Made by a program: the position numbers and the translations under genes
Shown here: positions 45,190-56,047 of the stretch, in pieces
Numbering within the stretch: position 1 is the stretch's first letter
How the letters are laid out: each line of letters starts with the position of its first letter
Assembly (NCBI GenBank): GCA_017390475.1
Contig: JAFPBO010000008.1
Coordinates: forward strand, 186,001 to 250,000
Length of the DNA stretch: 64,000 bases
From: Loktanella sp.
Lineage (GTDB): Bacteria > Pseudomonadota > Alphaproteobacteria > Rhodobacterales > Rhodobacteraceae
Reading direction: 5' to 3'
The notes under the pieces: model-generated
Seen by the model: only the letters and a program-made list of their open reading frames with translations
Database searches by the model: none
Told to the model about the DNA's origin: nothing

Positions 45190-46353
45190 ATGTTCCACGC
45201 ATCAATGACATTTGATCTGGGCGAGGATGTGAACGCGCTACGCGAGATGGTGCATGATTGGGCGCAGTCCCGGGTCAAACCGATGGCCGCCGCGATTGAC
45301 CGCGACAATTTCTTTCCTGCCCAACTCTGGCGTGAAATGGGTGATCTGGGGTTGCTGGGTGTGACCGTGGACGAAGCCTATGGCGGCGCAGGCATGACCT
45401 ATCTCGCCCATACCGTCGCGATCGAGGAAATCGCCCGCGCCTCTGCCTCGGTCAGCCTGTCCTATGGCGCGCATTCCAACCTTTGCGTCAATCAGATCAA
45501 GCTGAACGGGAGCGAAGCGCAAAAGGCGAAATACCTGCCCGGCCTGATCTCGGGCGCGCATGTGGGGGCCTTGGCGATGTCCGAAGCCGGGGCCGGGTCT
45601 GATGTGGTGTCGATGTCCCTGCGCGCGGAAAAACGGAACGATCATTACCGTCTGAACGGCCATAAATACTGGATCACCAATGGGCCGGATGCGGATACGC
45701 TGGTGGTTTATGCCAAGACGGACCCCGATGCCGGATCGAAAGGCATCACCGCCTTTCTGGTGGAAAAAACCATGACAGGGTTCAGCACATCCCCCCATTT
45801 CGACAAGCTCGGCATGCGGGGATCGAACACGGCAGAACTGATTTTTGATGATGTCGCCGTGCCGTTCGAAAATGTGCTGGGCGAGGAAGGCCGCGGTGTC
45901 CGCGTGTTGATGTCGGGGCTGGATTACGAACGTGTCGTGCTGGCGGGCATAGGGCTCGGGATCATGGCCGCCTGTCTGGATGAGATCATGCCCTATCTGG
46001 CGTCACGTAAACAATTCGGCCAGCCCATCGGCAATTTCCAACTGATGCAGGGCAAGATCGCCGATATGTATACGGCGATGAATTCCGCCCGCGCCTATGT
46101 CTATGCCGTGGCTCAGGCCTGCGACAATGGCACTGTCACAAGGCAGGACGCCGCCGCCTGCTGTCTGTATGCATCAGAAGAGGCGATGAAACAGGCGCAT
46201 CAGGCTGTGCAGGCCATGGGCGGTGCCGGGTTCCTGACTGACGCTCCCGTCGCGCGGCTGTTTCGCGACGCCAAGCTGATGGAGATCGGCGCAGGCACAT
46301 CGGAAATCCGCCGCATGCTGGTGGGCCGCGAAATGATGGGGGCGATGGGGTGA
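45190..46353 (+). CDS. liuA: Isovaleryl-CoA dehydrogenase
   Basis: 387 aa flavoprotein; isovaleryl-CoA to 3-methylcrotonyl-CoA with electrons to ETF, in leucine degradation. ACAD features: [37 protein letters not shown] (typical of IVD), [70 protein letters not shown]. The catalytic Glu in SGLDYERV is residue 247, the IVD position. The operon context (MCC, HMG-CoA lyase) makes the IVD label strong. Stop overlaps the next GTG start. Confidence 0.94.
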
Positions 46354-46835
46354 AGATTGCCGCGCTCGCCCTGCTGATGCTGCCCGCTGCCGCGCTGGCG
46401 CAGGACGACTGGCTTTACACGCCGATGGTGGAGGCTTGCCTTGCCAGTGGCGACAGGCTCTGTATCGGCGATGCCGCCACGATCTGCATGGCAGATGAAG
46501 ATGACGGCGAAACCACCTTTGGCATGATGACCTGCCTGTCGGCAGAGGCGCAGGTCTGGGATGACCTGCTGAACGCCGCATATGCCAAGGCCCGCGATTT
46601 CGCCCGCGAGATGGACGCAGGCGAGGCAGAGTTTTTCCCGGAATTCGCGATCCGCGCAGATCAGGTGCAGGCGGCGCAACGGGCCTGGATCGGCTTTCGC
46701 GATGCCAATTGCGCGATGCAATACGGGCTGTGGGGCGCGGGCTCCATGCGCCAGATTGCGGGGGCGGATTGCCGGCTGCGGATGACTGCGGATCGCACGT
46801 TCGATCTGCGTGACTACTACAGCAGCGTACCATGA
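46350..46835 (+). CDS. LprI-like lysozyme-inhibitor family protein (DUF1311)
   Basis: 161 aa from GTG 46350, overlapping the liuA stop (GTGA). Signal peptide (V/M)[16 protein letters not shown], then [42 protein letters not shown] and [19 protein letters not shown] with [15 protein letters not shown]. The Cys pattern and W-x-x-F/Y-RD-x-x-C are LprI (PF07007) features. It would be periplasmic. Why it sits in a leucine operon is unclear; it is coupled to both neighbours. Confidence 0.8.
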
Positions 46836-47125
46836 GACGCTGGATATTCTTCATCCCCGTCGCAGGGCTGGTCGTAGTGGCGGGCATTGTCGGCTATCGC
46901 ATGGGGCAGGTGCCGGGCGAGACCGAGATTATAACCCGCTATGCCGCTACATATGTCGCGATGGAGGGCGATGATGCCGCGCTGACCGATTGCGCCGCGA
47001 CCACTCATCCAGACCCCGGCGTGCGTCTGGTCATCAATTGCGCCAATCCCAACGGGCTGACCACGACATTCTATGTCGGCCCCAGGGGCGAGGCTTTGCC
47101 CGAACCACAAGGACCCGCGACATGA
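46832..47125 (+). CDS. Small single-pass membrane or exported protein, unknown
   Basis: 97 aa. One N-terminal hydrophobic helix ([20 protein letters not shown], about residues 6-25) followed by an extracytoplasmic domain with two Cys ([17 protein letters not shown]), likely a disulphide. No known family. ATGA overlaps at both ends tie it into the liu operon between the LprI-like gene and the MCC beta gene. Confidence 0.65.
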
Positions 47126-48684
47126 GCGACCGCGCTTTGCATGAGGCCGCCCTGGCGCAGGTGGCCGCAGCCGCCGCCACCGCAGCGCTTGGCGGCGGGC
47201 AGGTCGCGCGCGACCGCCATATCAGCCGTGGCAAGATGCTGCCGCGCGATAGGGTGGCCGGATTGCTAGACCCCGGCAGTGCGTTTCTGGAAATAGGCGC
47301 GACGGCGGCACATGGTCTATATGACGGGGCGGCCCCCTGTGCTGGCGTGATCGCGGGTATCGGGCAGGTCAATGGTGTGCAGGTCATGGTCATCTGCAAC
47401 GACGCCACCGTGAAGGGCGGCACCTATTACCCGATGAGCGTCAAGAAACACCTGCGCGCGCAAGAGATCGCGCAGGCTTGCCATCTGCCTTGCGTCTATC
47501 TTGTCGACAGCGGCGGCGCGAACCTGCCCAATCAGGACGAAGTTTTCCCCGACCGCGACCATTTCGGGCGCATTTTCTATAATCAGGCGCAGATGTCCGC
47601 ACTGGGTATCCCCCAGATCGCCGTGGTGATGGGGTCCTGCACGGCTGGCGGGGCATACGTTCCCGCAATGGCCGATGTGTCGATCATCGTCCGCGACCAA
47701 GGCACGATCTTTCTGGCCGGGCCACCCTTGGTCAAGGCCGCGACGGGCGAGGTGGTCAGTGCCGAAGCCCTTGGCGGCGGTGATGTCCACACCCGCCTGT
47801 CCGGCGTGGCCGATTATCTGGCCGAGGATGATGCCCATGCGCTTGCGCTAGCGCGGCAGGCGGTCGCGTCATGTTCAGCACAAAATGCGAACAATGTCAG
47901 ACGCTTGCCCTCCGAACCTCCCGCACTTGATCCGGCGAGCATCTTCGATGCGATCCCCGCCGATCTGCGCACGCCTTACGACATCCGCGAGGTGATCCGG
48001 CGGATCGTGGACGGGTCCCACTTTGACGAATTCAAGGCGCGGTTTGGTGAGACTTTGGTCACCGGCTTCGCCCATATCGACGGCTGGCCCTGCGGGATCG
48101 TGTCGAATAACGGCGTGCTGTTTTCCGAGAGCGCCCAGAAAGGCGCGCATTTCGTGGAACTCTGCAGCCAGCGCAAGATTCCGCTGATCTTTCTGCAGAA
48201 TATCACCGGTTTCATGGTCGGCCAGAAATACGAAAACGAAGGCATCGCACGACATGGGGCTAAGATGGTGACCGCCGTGGCGACAACGAAAGTGCCGAAA
48301 ATCACGATGGTCGTGGGAGGGTCCTTTGGTGCCGGCAATTACGGCATGGCAGGCCGCGCCTATAGCCCGCATTTCATGTGGTCATGGCCGACCAGCCGGA
48401 TCAGCGTCATGGGCGGCGAACAGGCGGCAGGCGTGCTGGCCTCGGTGAAACGCGACGCGATTGAGCGCAAGGGTGGCGCATGGTCGGCAGAGGAAGAGGC
48501 CGCCTTCAAACAGCCGACGATTGATATGTTCACCGAACAGTCCCACCCGCTCTATGCTGCGGCCCGGCTCTGGGACGACGGCGTGATCGACCCGCGCAAA
48601 AGCCGCGAGGTCTTGGCCCTGTCACTGGCGGCCGCCTGTAATGCGCCCATAGAGGAGACACGCTTTGGCGTGTTCCGGATGTGA
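47122..48684 (+). CDS. liuB: Methylcrotonyl-CoA carboxylase beta (carboxyltransferase) subunit
   Basis: 520 aa from ATG 47122 (ATGA overlap); a longer in-frame reading is not family-like. It transfers CO2 from carboxybiotin to 3-methylcrotonyl-CoA. Carboxyltransferase features: [61 protein letters not shown] (MCC-type), [62 protein letters not shown] and [11 protein letters not shown]. The normal end FGVFRM is intact, so the following insertion did not truncate it. Stop TGA overlaps the next ATG (TGATG). Confidence 0.95.
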
Positions 48685-49904
48685 TGGGGAATTTGCTTGC
48701 CGATGACTATCTTTTCGGGACGTGTGATTTCTTCTGTGACGACACTCTGGTAGGGCGTCGTCCATGTTACTTTGACCTTGTCCAATCTCGGTTCGTGCTT
48801 GGGTGTGAGCAGCTTGACATGCTGCGCCAATATCTCCGACCCGCCAACATGGTTGTTTATTTTGAAAACATCACGTTTTTTTCGGTTGATCAGCGACTAA
48901 GCACAGCGAAGATTATTCCCAGCTTTTTCACCGACGATGAATTGCATCCGCGACGATTTCCTGAGGATTTTCAGATTGATGTTGACCCAGCCCGTTTCAC
49001 GTATTGGGCAAAGTTCATCTGCAACGGCACCATCGAAATTTTTTCTGACAGACAGGATGCCCCGCCAGTCAAACAGGTGCTGTTGGTTCCCGGCGTAAAA
49101 CAAATGAGATCTGTGAAGGCAATTGACCTTACCGACGACGTGAAGCTTTCTTCCAAAGACGGCCATCTTGTTATTGATGGACGCGCCGACTTATCCCTTG
49201 AAGAGATTTTCGCACTGGGTTTGGCGGTGGGTGGGCCGCTCAAACTTCATGCAAACATCGACGGAGACAAAATCAGCCTTGTCCTAAATCATGGACGAGA
49301 GGCTGGACGCTATCGTCCTTTTTTCCATCGTGCGACACCTGACGGAGTGGTTGATCCTCTGGCAATTGCGAATTCCGTGCCGCTGGTTTTCGGTGCGGCA
49401 TGCCGTTTTCAGGACGATGGCCGCTCTGACCTGAGAATAATTTCCGAAGCATTTCTGGAGGTTTGGTCTGGCAGGCACGGGTACAATCTTAAAGCTCTTG
49501 CCGCATCACAAATCATAGACGGGCTGGTGAAGGTTGGAACAGGAAACACGAATAAGCAGGCGGATGTGCCACAACTGAAAGCCCTGGGGCTTACGCACGA
49601 CGAGGCTGAATTTGTGAGAGCTTTCAGAAACTGGATCGTGCATGGAAACCTTGATCTTTTAGGCTTTCTTGCTTCTGGTAAGCAGAATGGCTCCCAGATT
49701 ATTGGGAAATCCGAGCAAGAGTTGTTTGCGCGCTTTGGCATAGGTGGAACGGGCGATGCGACCCTGAACTTTTTGCTTTCATTCGCTGCCAAAACTCTTC
49801 TTCAAAGAATGGGCCTCGATGTACCGACCAGCCTTAACTGGCCTGTGAATGGCGAATTTTCGTTTGATCGGTTAAGGCATGATGGAGCATCAAGTGATGT
49901 TTGA
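48684..49904 (+). CDS. Unknown protein with C-terminal Rx4H (HEPN-like) motif inserted between MCC subunits
   Basis: 406 aa from ATG 48684 (or GTG 48681). Not recognised as a known family. Residues 1-220 look beta-rich; residues about 245-385 are helical and hold FVRAFRNWIVHGN, with R315-N316 and H320 giving the Rx4H core of HEPN ribonuclease domains. This beta-rich N-terminus plus HEPN tail resembles the layout of ApeA-type defence proteins, by eye only. Base use is clearly AT-richer than in neighbours. The start overlaps the liuB stop and the end overlaps the liuD start by 8 bases. GTGATG stands at both junctions (48681-48686, 49894-49899). HEPN function is a hypothesis. Confidence 0.7.
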   Translation: MGNLLADDYLFGTCDFFCDDTLVGRRPCYFDLVQSRFVLGCEQLDMLRQYLRPANMVVYFENITFFSVDQRLSTAKIIPSFFTDDELHPRRFPEDFQIDVDPARFTYWAKFICNGTIEIFSDRQDAPPVKQVLLVPGVKQMRSVKAIDLTDDVKLSSKDGHLVIDGRADLSLEEIFALGLAVGGPLKLHANIDGDKISLVLNHGREAGRYRPFFHRATPDGVVDPLAIANSVPLVFGAACRFQDDGRSDLRIISEAFLEVWSGRHGYNLKALAASQIIDGLVKVGTGNTNKQADVPQLKALGLTHDEAEFVRAFRNWIVHGNLDLLGFLASGKQNGSQIIGKSEQELFARFGIGGTGDATLNFLLSFAAKTLLQRMGLDVPTSLNWPVNGEFSFDRLRHDGASSDV

Positions 49905-51804
49905 TAAAATCCTCATCGCCAACCGGGGCGAGATTGCTTGCCGGATCATCCGCACCGCCCGCGCGATGGGGGTGCGGACGGTGGCCGTTTATTCCGATGC
50001 TGATGCAGGCGCGCTGCATGTGCAACAGGCGGATCAGGCGGTCAGGCTAGGCCCTGCGCCCGTCGCCGACAGCTATCTGCGTGGCGATCTGATCATTCAG
50101 GCAGCGTTGGAGACCGGCGCGCAGGCCATTCATCCGGGCTATGGGTTTCTGTCGGAAAACCCCGATTTTGTCGATCAGGTGACGCAGGCGGGGCTGGTGT
50201 TCATCGGCCCGGCGGCGGAGGCGATCCGCGCAATGGGGCTGAAAGATGCCGCCAAGGCGCTGATGATCAAGGCCGGTGTCCCGGTGGTGCCGGGGTATCA
50301 TGGCGACAATCAGGACACGGCCTATCTGGCGCAGCAGGCGCAGGACATCGGCTATCCGGTGCTGATCAAGGCCGTCGCGGGCGGTGGCGGCAAGGGGATG
50401 CGCCTGGTCGAGGACCCGCGCGATTTTGCCGAACATCTGGCCTCGGCGCAGGCAGAGGCGCGGAATGCTTTTGGCAATCCGGCTGTGTTGATCGAGAAAT
50501 ATATCACCACGCCGCGCCATATCGAAGTGCAGGTTTTTGGTGATGGCAAGGACGCCGTGCATCTGTTCGAGCGCGATTGTTCGCTGCAACGCCGCCACCA
50601 GAAAGTGATCGAAGAAGCGCCAGCCCCCGGCATGACCGCCGAACTCCGCGCCGCCATGGGGCAGGCGGCAGTGACGGCGGCACGGGCGATCGGCTATGCG
50701 GGGGCCGGGACGATCGAATTCATCGTCGATAGCGCGGGCGGGCTGCGCCTGGATGGGTTCTGGTTCATGGAAATGAACACAAGGTTGCAGGTCGAACATC
50801 CGGTGACCGAAGCCATCACCGGCGTCGATCTGGTAGAGTGGCAGTTGCGTGTGGCTGCGGGTGAGGCTTTGCCTTTGCGGCAAGAGGACTTGTCGATCAA
50901 TGGTCACGCTTTCGAGGCACGGCTTTATGCCGAGGATGTGCCAGCCGGGTTCCTGCCTGCGACCGGGGTGCTGGACCATCTGAAATTCCCCGCTGATGCG
51001 CGGATCGACAGCGGCGTCGTGCCGGGGTCGGAGATTTCGTCCTGGTATGATCCGATGATCGCAAAGATCACTGTGCATGGCCCGGACCGGGCCTGCGCTT
51101 TGCGCAGGTTACGGGCGGCGCTTGATGGGGCAGAGGTTGCCGGGACGGTGACCAATCTGGGGTTCCTGCGGCTGCTGGCGCGGGATCCGGATTTCAGCGC
51201 GGGCGATGTCGATACCGGGCTGATTGCGCGCGGGCAGGACAGTTTATGTCAGCCGGTGGTGCCGCAGCCGCGCGATTGGGCTGTTGCTGCGGTGGTCGCT
51301 GCGGATCTGCCGGACGGGCCGCTGACGGGGTTTACCCTATGGGCGCCATTGAACCGGGTGATCACGCTGGCATTGGGTGATGACCTACGGGATGTGACCT
51401 TGCAGCTGCATGGGCCGGATCATGTCAGCGTGGATATTGCCGGAGAGCGGGTCGACCTGCGCCGTCACGGGCCGGGCTGGGGCCAGCGCGCCTTGCGGCA
51501 CGGCGGGCGTGTCACTGTGTTTGGATCGCAGGATGTCACCTTTCGTATTGTCGATCCTTTGGACCGGGCGTCCGATATCGCAGGTGGCGATGTGGTGCTG
51601 GCCCCGATGCCGGGGCTGGTGCGCGACGTGGCTGTCCGCGTCGGCGATGAGGTGGTGCAGGGCTGTCGGATGATCGTGCTGGAGGCGATGAAGATGGAAC
51701 ATGTGCTGCGCGCACCCCGCGATGGGGTGGTCGCCAGTGTGGCTGTGGCAGCGGGGGATCAGGTCCGGGCAGGGGATCTGATCGTGGCCCTTGTCCCGGA
51801 CTGA
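49897..51804 (+). CDS. liuD: Methylcrotonyl-CoA carboxylase alpha (biotin carboxylase/BCCP) subunit
   Basis: 635 aa from ATG 49897, the normal MFDKILIANRGEIACRI start, with GGAG (49884-49887) inside the end of the inserted gene. Biotin carboxylase (1-450): NPDFVDQ, AVAGGGGKGMRLV, EKYITTPRHIEVQVFGD, RDCSLQRRHQKVIEEAPAP, FMEMNTRLQVEHPVTE. The BCCP domain at the C-terminus has VLEAMKMEHVL with the biotin Lys. It makes carboxybiotin with ATP and bicarbonate for the beta subunit. The context fixes it as MCC rather than propionyl-CoA carboxylase. Confidence 0.95.
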   Translation: MFDKILIANRGEIACRIIRTARAMGVRTVAVYSDADAGALHVQQADQAVRLGPAPVADSYLRGDLIIQAALETGAQAIHPGYGFLSENPDFVDQVTQAGLVFIGPAAEAIRAMGLKDAAKALMIKAGVPVVPGYHGDNQDTAYLAQQAQDIGYPVLIKAVAGGGGKGMRLVEDPRDFAEHLASAQAEARNAFGNPAVLIEKYITTPRHIEVQVFGDGKDAVHLFERDCSLQRRHQKVIEEAPAPGMTAELRAAMGQAAVTAARAIGYAGAGTIEFIVDSAGGLRLDGFWFMEMNTRLQVEHPVTEAITGVDLVEWQLRVAAGEALPLRQEDLSINGHAFEARLYAEDVPAGFLPATGVLDHLKFPADARIDSGVVPGSEISSWYDPMIAKITVHGPDRACALRRLRAALDGAEVAGTVTNLGFLRLLARDPDFSAGDVDTGLIARGQDSLCQPVVPQPRDWAVAAVVAADLPDGPLTGFTLWAPLNRVITLALGDDLRDVTLQLHGPDHVSVDIAGERVDLRRHGPGWGQRALRHGGRVTVFGSQDVTFRIVDPLDRASDIAGGDVVLAPMPGLVRDVAVRVGDEVVQGCRMIVLEAMKMEHVLRAPRDGVVASVAVAAGDQVRAGDLIVALVPD

Positions 51805-54533: not shown

Positions 54534-55151
54534 ATGACCGAAGCCTTGCAAGAACTTGGCCTGCATCTGGAAATGAAGCGCACCGATTGCGTTCAATCAT
54601 GGGACATCGCGCATGGTGAACTGAACGTCACGGTCGCGCCATCCTCGCTGGTCAGCTTTGTGGAATTTCTCAAGACTGATTCTGTCTGCCGGTTTTCATC
54701 CTTGGTGGACATTACGGCGGTCGATTACCCCAGCCGGGTGAAACGGTTCGACGTCGTCTATCATTTCCTCAGCATGTATCAGAACCAGCGTATCCGTCTG
54801 CGCTGCCAGATCCGCGAAGAAGACATGATGCCCTCGATCATCGGGGTGCATCCTGCGGCCAATTGGTTTGAACGGGAAGTGTTCGATATGTTCGGCATCC
54901 TTTTTTCGGGTCATCCTGATCTGCGTCGTATCCTGACGGATTACGGTTTTCGCGGTCATCCCTTGCGCAAGGACTTTCCGACGACAGGCTATACCGAGGT
55001 CCGCTATGACGAGGTGCAGAAACGTGTCGTTTATGAACCTGTCAGCCTTGTGCAGGAATACCGGCAGTTTGATTTCATGTCGCCATGGGAAGGCGCGCAA
55101 TATGTGCTGCCCGGCGACGAAAAAACCACGTCAGAGGCAAAGCCGAAGTGA
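54534..55151 (+). CDS. nuoC: NADH-quinone oxidoreductase subunit C
   Basis: 205 aa. [36 protein letters not shown] and the signature [39 protein letters not shown] are diagnostic for the 30-kDa subunit. It is a separate gene, not fused to nuoD. Stop overlaps the GTG start of a sulfotransferase gene that separates it from nuoD. Confidence 0.97.
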
Positions 55152-56047
55152 CAGATGTGTCCGTGCTCTTCTGCGTTGGCGCGACCAAGGCCGGGACCAC
55201 ATGGTTTTACCGGCTGCTGCATGATCACCCGGATTGTGCCCTGCCTGCGGTGAAAGAAGCGCATTATTGGGATACGTTCGACGCTGAGGATCGCGAGAAA
55301 CAGATTGCGGCCTTTCGTATCCGGCTGCGCGAGATGCGTGAACAAAAGGCCGCAGCACAGGCCGAAGGGCGGGGCTGGCAGGTCGATAACCTGACCCGCC
55401 GGATCGACGACATGAAGGCGTTGATCGCCGTGATCGAGGCTGGTCGCGCCGATGACCGCGCATATCTGTGCTGGTTGACGCAGGGGCGCGGTCAGGCCCG
55501 GCTTTACGCGGATATGACCCCGAATTATGCCACTTTGCCTGATGCACTGTTGGACCGGATGGTCAATGCCACGCCCACTGCCAAGGTGGCCTATCTGATG
55601 CGCGACCCGCTGGACCGGCTGTGGTCGCATATCCGCATGCAGGCGCGCCGCCAGCGACAAAGCCACGAGATTTACGAAAAGAAAGCCAACAACATCCTGC
55701 ACCGGATTCTGAACAAGGCGCAGGAGACTCATATTCTCGAACGTGGCGATTATGCTGGTGTGATCCGCAAATTGCGCCGCGTTGTGCCTGCCGAAAGGCT
55801 CATGGTGGCCTTTTCCGAAACCTTGATGACACCGCAGGGCTGCGCGCAGCTTTGCGCCTTTCTGGGCATCACGCCGGTTGCGGACCTGCCGCAAGAGGCG
55901 GTGCATGAAGGCCCGCCGGTGGTGATGCTTGATAAATTGCGCCCACGGGCGCAAAAGCTACTTTATGAACAATACGACTGGGTGGCCCGCAATGTCGGGC
56001 CCTTGCCTCAGAACTGGCAGGACAATTGTGTAAGGATGACAGCATGA
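55148..56047 (+). CDS. Sulfotransferase family protein inside the nuo operon
   Basis: 299 aa from GTG 55148, overlapping the nuoC stop. 5'-phosphosulfate loop [21 protein letters not shown] (PAPS binding) and 3'-phosphate motif [18 protein letters not shown] are intact, with a helical insertion (about residues 50-95) that includes [15 protein letters not shown]. It would transfer sulfate from PAPS to an unknown acceptor, probably cytoplasmic because no signal or membrane helix is seen. It is not a complex I subunit. Its stop overlaps the nuoD start. TGACAG occurs at both junctions (55149-55154, 56037-56042). Confidence 0.85.

Follow-up and report, generated by a model that had tools for sequence, protein, structure and literature searches.

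Closest described systems

Insertion of ORFans and other passenger genes into operons is a known general process. The fold of the HEPN superfamily is a bundle of four helices, helix 3 ending in the motif. HEPN ribonucleases act as homodimers, often on tRNA, and ApeA is listed among them (excerpt of PMC13405049). The HEPN motif is Rx4-6H with a polar residue after the arginine, and an acidic residue of helix 2, often in the form Ex3[KR], is present in many but not all of the families (excerpt of PMC3710099). ApeA consists of a mostly beta N-terminal domain of about 300 aa fused to a HEPN domain (same excerpt), and some ApeA neighbourhoods are described as holding restriction-modification or other defence genes. 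A lead concerning the trigger is provided by a title in the reference list of PMC13405049, according to which deoxydinucleotides activate ApeA. The HEPN proteins of the MtlR family are discussed as possible RNA-level repressors of their own operon (excerpt of PMC3710099).

The gene described here, X, encodes a protein of 406 aa and separates liuB from liuD in the window (the whole stretch of 64,000 nucleotides of Loktanella sp. DNA that was analysed). It resembles ApeA in its length, compared with 445-517 aa for the ApeA-like proteins L106, L118, L119 and L120, in an N-terminal region with more predicted strand than helix followed by a C-terminal region predicted as more helical (crude plot), and in the RNxxVHG towards the C-terminus, which is found in the same four proteins. 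It differs in that neither ApeA_NTD1 (PF18862) nor HEPN_Apea (PF18739) matches X at E ≤ 10, whereas L118 and L119 match both models over the cut-offs and L120 matches PF18862 over its cut-off, and in that X has no similarity to ApeA beyond the motif. Tests with small profiles gave no support for membership of X in ApeA beyond the motif. L118 (CP140937.1 413970-415484) is a "hypothetical protein" of the S. meliloti pSymB that is ApeA-like in both Pfam domains, and L119 (NZ_CP049160.1 81293-82645), from a plasmid of Caballeronia, is a HEPN gene of the ApeA-like kind flanked by IS630 transposase genes.

With the HEPN superfamily as a whole X shares an Rx4H with an asparagine after the arginine, but it lacks Ex3[KR] ahead of the motif and is known as a single sequence. 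Like MtlR, which belongs to mannitol operons, X may be a HEPN protein encoded within an operon for catabolism, but it has a foreign composition, is known from one genome and is not an old part of its operon. As an operon passenger X is of the usual kind, a single gene gained at a junction in the direction of the operon. It departs from the general case in that the sister clade displays the exact empty stop/start overlap and in that three of the four junctions of this operon are variable.

Gene X and its junctions

The features needed for the description of the locus are the following.

47122..48684, forward strand: liuB, methylcrotonyl-CoA carboxylase carboxyltransferase subunit; exact start uncertain, stop codon TGA at 48682-48684
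48681..48686, forward strand: GTGATG, left junction
48684..49904, forward strand: orphan gene X, 406 aa, whose likely start codon ATG shares a TGATG with the stop of liuB
49626..49646, forward strand: codons of RNWIVHG (residues 315-321), candidate Rx4H motif
49884..49887, forward strand: GGAG within the frame of X, resembling a ribosome-binding site for liuD, read from the sequence
49894..49899, forward strand: GTGATG, right junction; includes the start codon of liuD (ATG, 49897)
49897..51804, forward strand: liuD, methylcrotonyl-CoA carboxylase biotin-carboxylase subunit, overlapping X by 8 nt

The names liuB and liuD follow an earlier note on this DNA and what is known of the families. That note, made from the letters of the sequence, had proposed that a 406-aa gene of different base composition lies between the normal end of liuB (...FGVFRM) and the normal start of liuD, and the gene was indeed found there. 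It had let the gene begin at 48681. The open frame does run from the GTG at 48681 to 49904, but the likely start is the ATG at 48684, one codon downstream, which forms a TGATG with the liuB stop; from there X comprises 406 codons and ends with a TGA at 49902-49904, 8 nt inside liuD. The GGAG that X brings for liuD was confirmed and lies 9 nt before the liuD ATG, and alternative in-frame starts of liuD are possible at the ATGs of 49879 or 49882.

The composition of X is foreign to the operon: its GC content and its GC3 are both 0.49, compared with 0.60-0.65 and 0.71-0.76 in six other liu-operon genes. The GTGATG was found at both ends of X, as had been noted, and possibly represents a short target duplication or microhomology. 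It is weak evidence, because it consists of six bases only, three of which (ATG) a start codon requires in any case. The idea of a transposon with terminal inverted repeats was rejected, since a repeat search of positions 48640-49940 listed no pair, inverted or otherwise, that would connect one end of the insert with the other.

The genes read around X are metabolic, liu on both sides and then nuo, most of them being named by eye, and nothing among these mostly eye-named neighbours was identified as an antitoxin or as a gene for defence. In particular, the neighbours read include no restriction-modification or other defence gene of the kind described near some ApeA genes, and an adjacent nucleotidyltransferase antitoxin, as in MNT-HEPN toxin-antitoxin pairs, is absent, the direct neighbours of X being liuB and liuD. 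When the liuB-liuD stretch was compared with plasmids, the ten matches listed were all from alphaproteobacterial genera, Paracoccus first. A RidA/L-PSP gene occupies the liuB-liuD junction on a Sinorhizobium plasmid.

The liuB-liuD junction in the genus

The genus sample comprised 56 genomes, of which 44, the own genome included, have this kind of liuD beside liuB; the other 12 congeners, which have no liuD of this kind, fall outside the census. A bare TGATG overlap was found in 5 of the 44, a 5-bp spacer in 14, and a 10-bp spacer in 1. A further 6 have 48-177 bp in which no gene is clear. The remaining 18 contain coding inserts. On the basis of blastp these could be sub-divided into a family of 225 aa (11 genomes), an SNase-like group (6), a 97-aa frame (1) and X itself (1, the own genome), with genome G020 carrying both the 225-aa gene and the SNase-like gene. 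Pfam identified one SNase-like insert (PF00565, E 5.5e-10); it gave no match for one representative of the 225-aa family and nothing over its cut-off for the 97-aa frame. The proteins of the 225-aa family (L067, L070, L086 and others) contain 'DYFFIFDFEQFVERS' and have, by eye, a possible membrane stretch. Directly before liuD in G1139 (L079) and G022 (L091) stands a 146-aa WapI-like passenger of an immunity family; one of the pair matches PF24716 (E 1.1e-20) and the other is 91% identical to it.

X was found at this junction in none of the 43 other congeners examined. Four genomes, G029, G1140, G1131 and G016, have an empty site that reads CG(G/C)ATGTGATGTT(C/T), which is the liuB-liuD overlap that the earlier note had predicted for a junction without the gene. 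In a tree of liuA, liuB and liuD, made by a quick method from 41 genomes, the own genome (G000) groups with these four; SH-aLRT support is 100 for the five and 95 for the four. Three of the 44 genomes (G1132, G020 and G021) were left out of the tree, of the liu junction-span measurements and of the clustering of junction frames. Because the four nearest relatives have the bare TGATG and form the sister clade, we are highly confident that X was gained on the branch of its own species, exactly into the liuB-liuD stop/start overlap. The recent gain proposed earlier is supported by the foreign composition, by the bare overlap of the four closest genomes and by the fact that the genome samples yielded no homologue at E ≤ 1e-3.

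Some of the other inserts at this junction look old, with losses: on the tree the 225-aa family needs four changes (several gains or losses) and the SNase-like group two. An ancestral X that was lost from all the relatives could draw on these old-looking inserts and on G020 with its two genes, but it is scarcely credible in view of the 43 congeners that lack X at the junction, the four bare sisters and the absence of homologues at E ≤ 1e-3 from the wider genome samples.

Passengers at other junctions

Inserted genes were also found elsewhere in the liu operon and in the nuo operon, which is the next operon in the window.

46350..46835, forward strand: passenger gene of the LprI family (PF07007, E 1.3e-21), flanked by liuA and liuB
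55151..56047: gene of the sulfotransferase family (PF13469, E 1e-15), flanked by nuoC (named by eye) and nuoD (PF00346)

Across the 41 genomes measured, the gap between liuA and liuB ranges from 16 to 2741 bp, and one large cluster of related frames occurs at this junction in the relatives (L122-L162). In the 40 genomes where they could be measured, the gap between liuD and liuE amounts to 628-738 bp (29 genomes) or to no more than 103 bp (11 genomes), and that between liuE and liuC ranges from -4 to 34 bp. The liuD-liuE insert is a GST-like gene, as judged from 29 frames in one cluster of which one representative was scanned (e.g. L127-L129). This gene is absent from the window, where the gap is 66 bp, and from the four sister genomes (47-89 bp).

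Junctions of both liu and nuo thus hold inserted genes, and X is one passenger among several in these metabolic operons. The liuB-liuD place is therefore less special than it first appeared: unrelated inserts are common there, and other junctions vary as well. The passengers that were checked are of mixed kinds (LprI, SNase, WapI-like, GST and RidA/L-PSP).

Searches for homologues of X

No model of Pfam or PADLOC matches X, as a whole or in pieces, at E ≤ 10, and the matches in NCBIfam (E 0.19) and PHROGs (E 0.043) are at chance level; in this sense the earlier suggestion of an undescribed family is supported. The silence of PADLOC says little, because PADLOC also misses two of the four ApeA-like proteins (L119 and L121). 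PDB returned nothing at E ≤ 10 for X or for its C-terminal part, and nothing for the ApeA-like L119. Plasmids and phages gave no homologues by tblastn. Apart from X itself, there was no homologue at E ≤ 1e-3 in 60 relatives and in the order (390 genomes), class (385), phylum (398) and family (218) samples, which overlap. At loose E-values, and with the own genome included, matches occur in 46 of 385, 45 of 398 and 3 of 218 genomes. The best genome match, in G060 (L002; E 0.0015), covers a stretch that contains stop codons and was set aside as chance, and the viral "relatives" L058 and L059, with matches of 11-12 residues, were likewise taken as chance. Pattern scans of genome and viral contigs, in which 8 residues have to match exactly so that distant relatives would be overlooked, gave no accepted homologue. 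In a profile search with PF18739, 10 of 249 genomes matched at E ≤ 0.01, the own genome not being among them. Within the databases and genomes sampled, the predicted X protein is an orphan known from one genome.

The candidate HEPN motif

The sequence RNWIVHG at residues 315-321 of X contains R315, N316 and H320 and agrees with Rx4-6H having a polar residue after the arginine; R315 and H320 had been numbered correctly for a protein that starts at the ATG. As a yardstick for the motif, 532 frames of at least 300 codons were collected from the fetched loci and the window, many of which are not real genes (L001, L028, L060 and L122, duplicates from the own genome, were excluded). RNxxxHG occurs in five of them, X and the ApeA-like L106, L118, L119 and L120, the latter four having been fetched as HEPN proteins, and in none of the 527 others. 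The looser R[NDH]xxxH is common, being present in 92 of the 532.

The earlier note had suggested a HEPN-type gene. The motif stands, but comparison with profiles finds nothing beyond it. The best local match of X falls on the HEPN motif in two of eight ApeA-like proteins (L119, E 0.4; L120, E 3.6) and off the motif in the other six, L106 giving only a lesser match at the motif; all of these matches are at chance level. With hhalign, X scored a probability of 0.1 against a profile of the eight ApeA-like sequences, and eight shuffled copies and the reversed copy scored 0.0-0.3. Against a profile of four ApeA-like HEPN regions, the score of X was reached by 13 of 1000 full shuffles, by 333 that keep the motif and by 543 windowed shuffles that keep the motif. 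For three other profiles the corresponding numbers per 1000 were 29, 293 and 508; 29, 368 and 497; and 105, 98 and 131. Depending on the profile, then, the score of X is equalled by 98-368 of 1000 shuffles that keep the motif. No similarity beyond the motif is thus shown to these profiles, which are small (2-8 sequences) and ApeA-like only. L104 and L107 entered them as partial sequences, and L108-L113 (weak PF18739 matches) and L114-L117 (PF18862 matches from the same four genomes) were kept out. The motif-keeping shuffles and the hhalign controls equal X, so that the motif, although unusual, is isolated.

According to a crude propensity plot, residues 1-225 are predicted with 0.39 strand and 0.20 helix and residues 240-385 with 0.38 helix and 0.25 strand; the stretch that leads into the motif and holds it goes from helix to strand. 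Aromatic residues, some of which are conserved in the N-terminal domain of ApeA, make up 11% of positions 1-225 of X and 9% thereafter. Ex3[KR] occurs in X at residues 86 and 346 only, and not ahead of the motif. The chances that X encodes a HEPN RNase are about even. If it does, a role as a defence effector is fairly probable; overall, such a role is less likely than HEPN itself.

Interpretation

Taken as a whole, the reading that we favour is that X is a foreign passenger, gained on its own branch, and that its product is an effector RNase of a divergent HEPN type whose sensor is rich in beta structure; it is tentative, and we rate it a little below an even chance. A single foreign gene would have landed exactly at the liuB-liuD TGATG, where it probably shares the liu transcript and has its translation coupled to that of both neighbours, so that the promoter of the operon and the overlaps may provide a steady and coupled expression. 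The overlaps also suggest that the insertion is harmless to the operon. On the plan of ApeA, the beta-rich N-terminal region would act as the sensor of a trigger and keep X inactive. Upon that trigger, for instance phage infection, the C-terminal HEPN region (R315/H320) would dimerise, cut tRNA or mRNA and stop growth. X itself would play no part in leucine breakdown, the operon only supplying its expression.

It is also quite possible, at slightly less than an even chance, that X is a lineage-specific passenger with another or no selected function, such as the cargo of an element or a decaying ORFan, and that RNWIVHG is a chance likeness. The readiness with which the junction takes in unrelated genes (18 of 44, besides the six with 48-177 bp) agrees with this, as do the wide liuA-liuB span in 41 genomes, the filled liuD-liuE gap in 29 of 40, the mixed kinds of the passengers, and the lack of any likeness to the HEPN profiles used once the motif is set aside. 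The full 406-codon frame with its tight overlaps at both ends speaks against decay, and the absence of RNxxxHG from the 527 other yardstick frames against a chance motif. A third possibility is that X is a HEPN-type protein that binds or cuts the liu transcript and regulates it, tuning the ratio of the carboxylase subunits as has been proposed for MtlR as a regulator at the RNA level (excerpt of PMC3710099). The overlaps with, and the separation of, two subunits of one enzyme would fit such a regulator, yet it is very improbable, given that the four nearest relatives have no gene at this place, that other congeners have unrelated genes there, and that the composition of X is foreign.

If X is a HEPN effector, as in the favoured reading, defence-like genes would hide in metabolic operons, beyond the reach of defence-island searches; co-localisation cannot find systems that lie outside islands (excerpt of PMC13092281). 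It is conceivable, but rather unlikely, that X founds an undescribed HEPN family with an N-terminal sensor of its own, and that in this genus the liu operon is a standing entry site for single effector or immunity genes (HEPN-like, SNase and WapI-like), which would be constitutively expressed via stop/start overlaps outside defence islands. The junction census is a firmer result than the HEPN or the defence reading. It provides a clean natural series at one junction in one genus, from the bare overlap via the 5-bp spacer and short filler to one passenger and two passengers, and this series can be used for studying how operons take in and lose genes.
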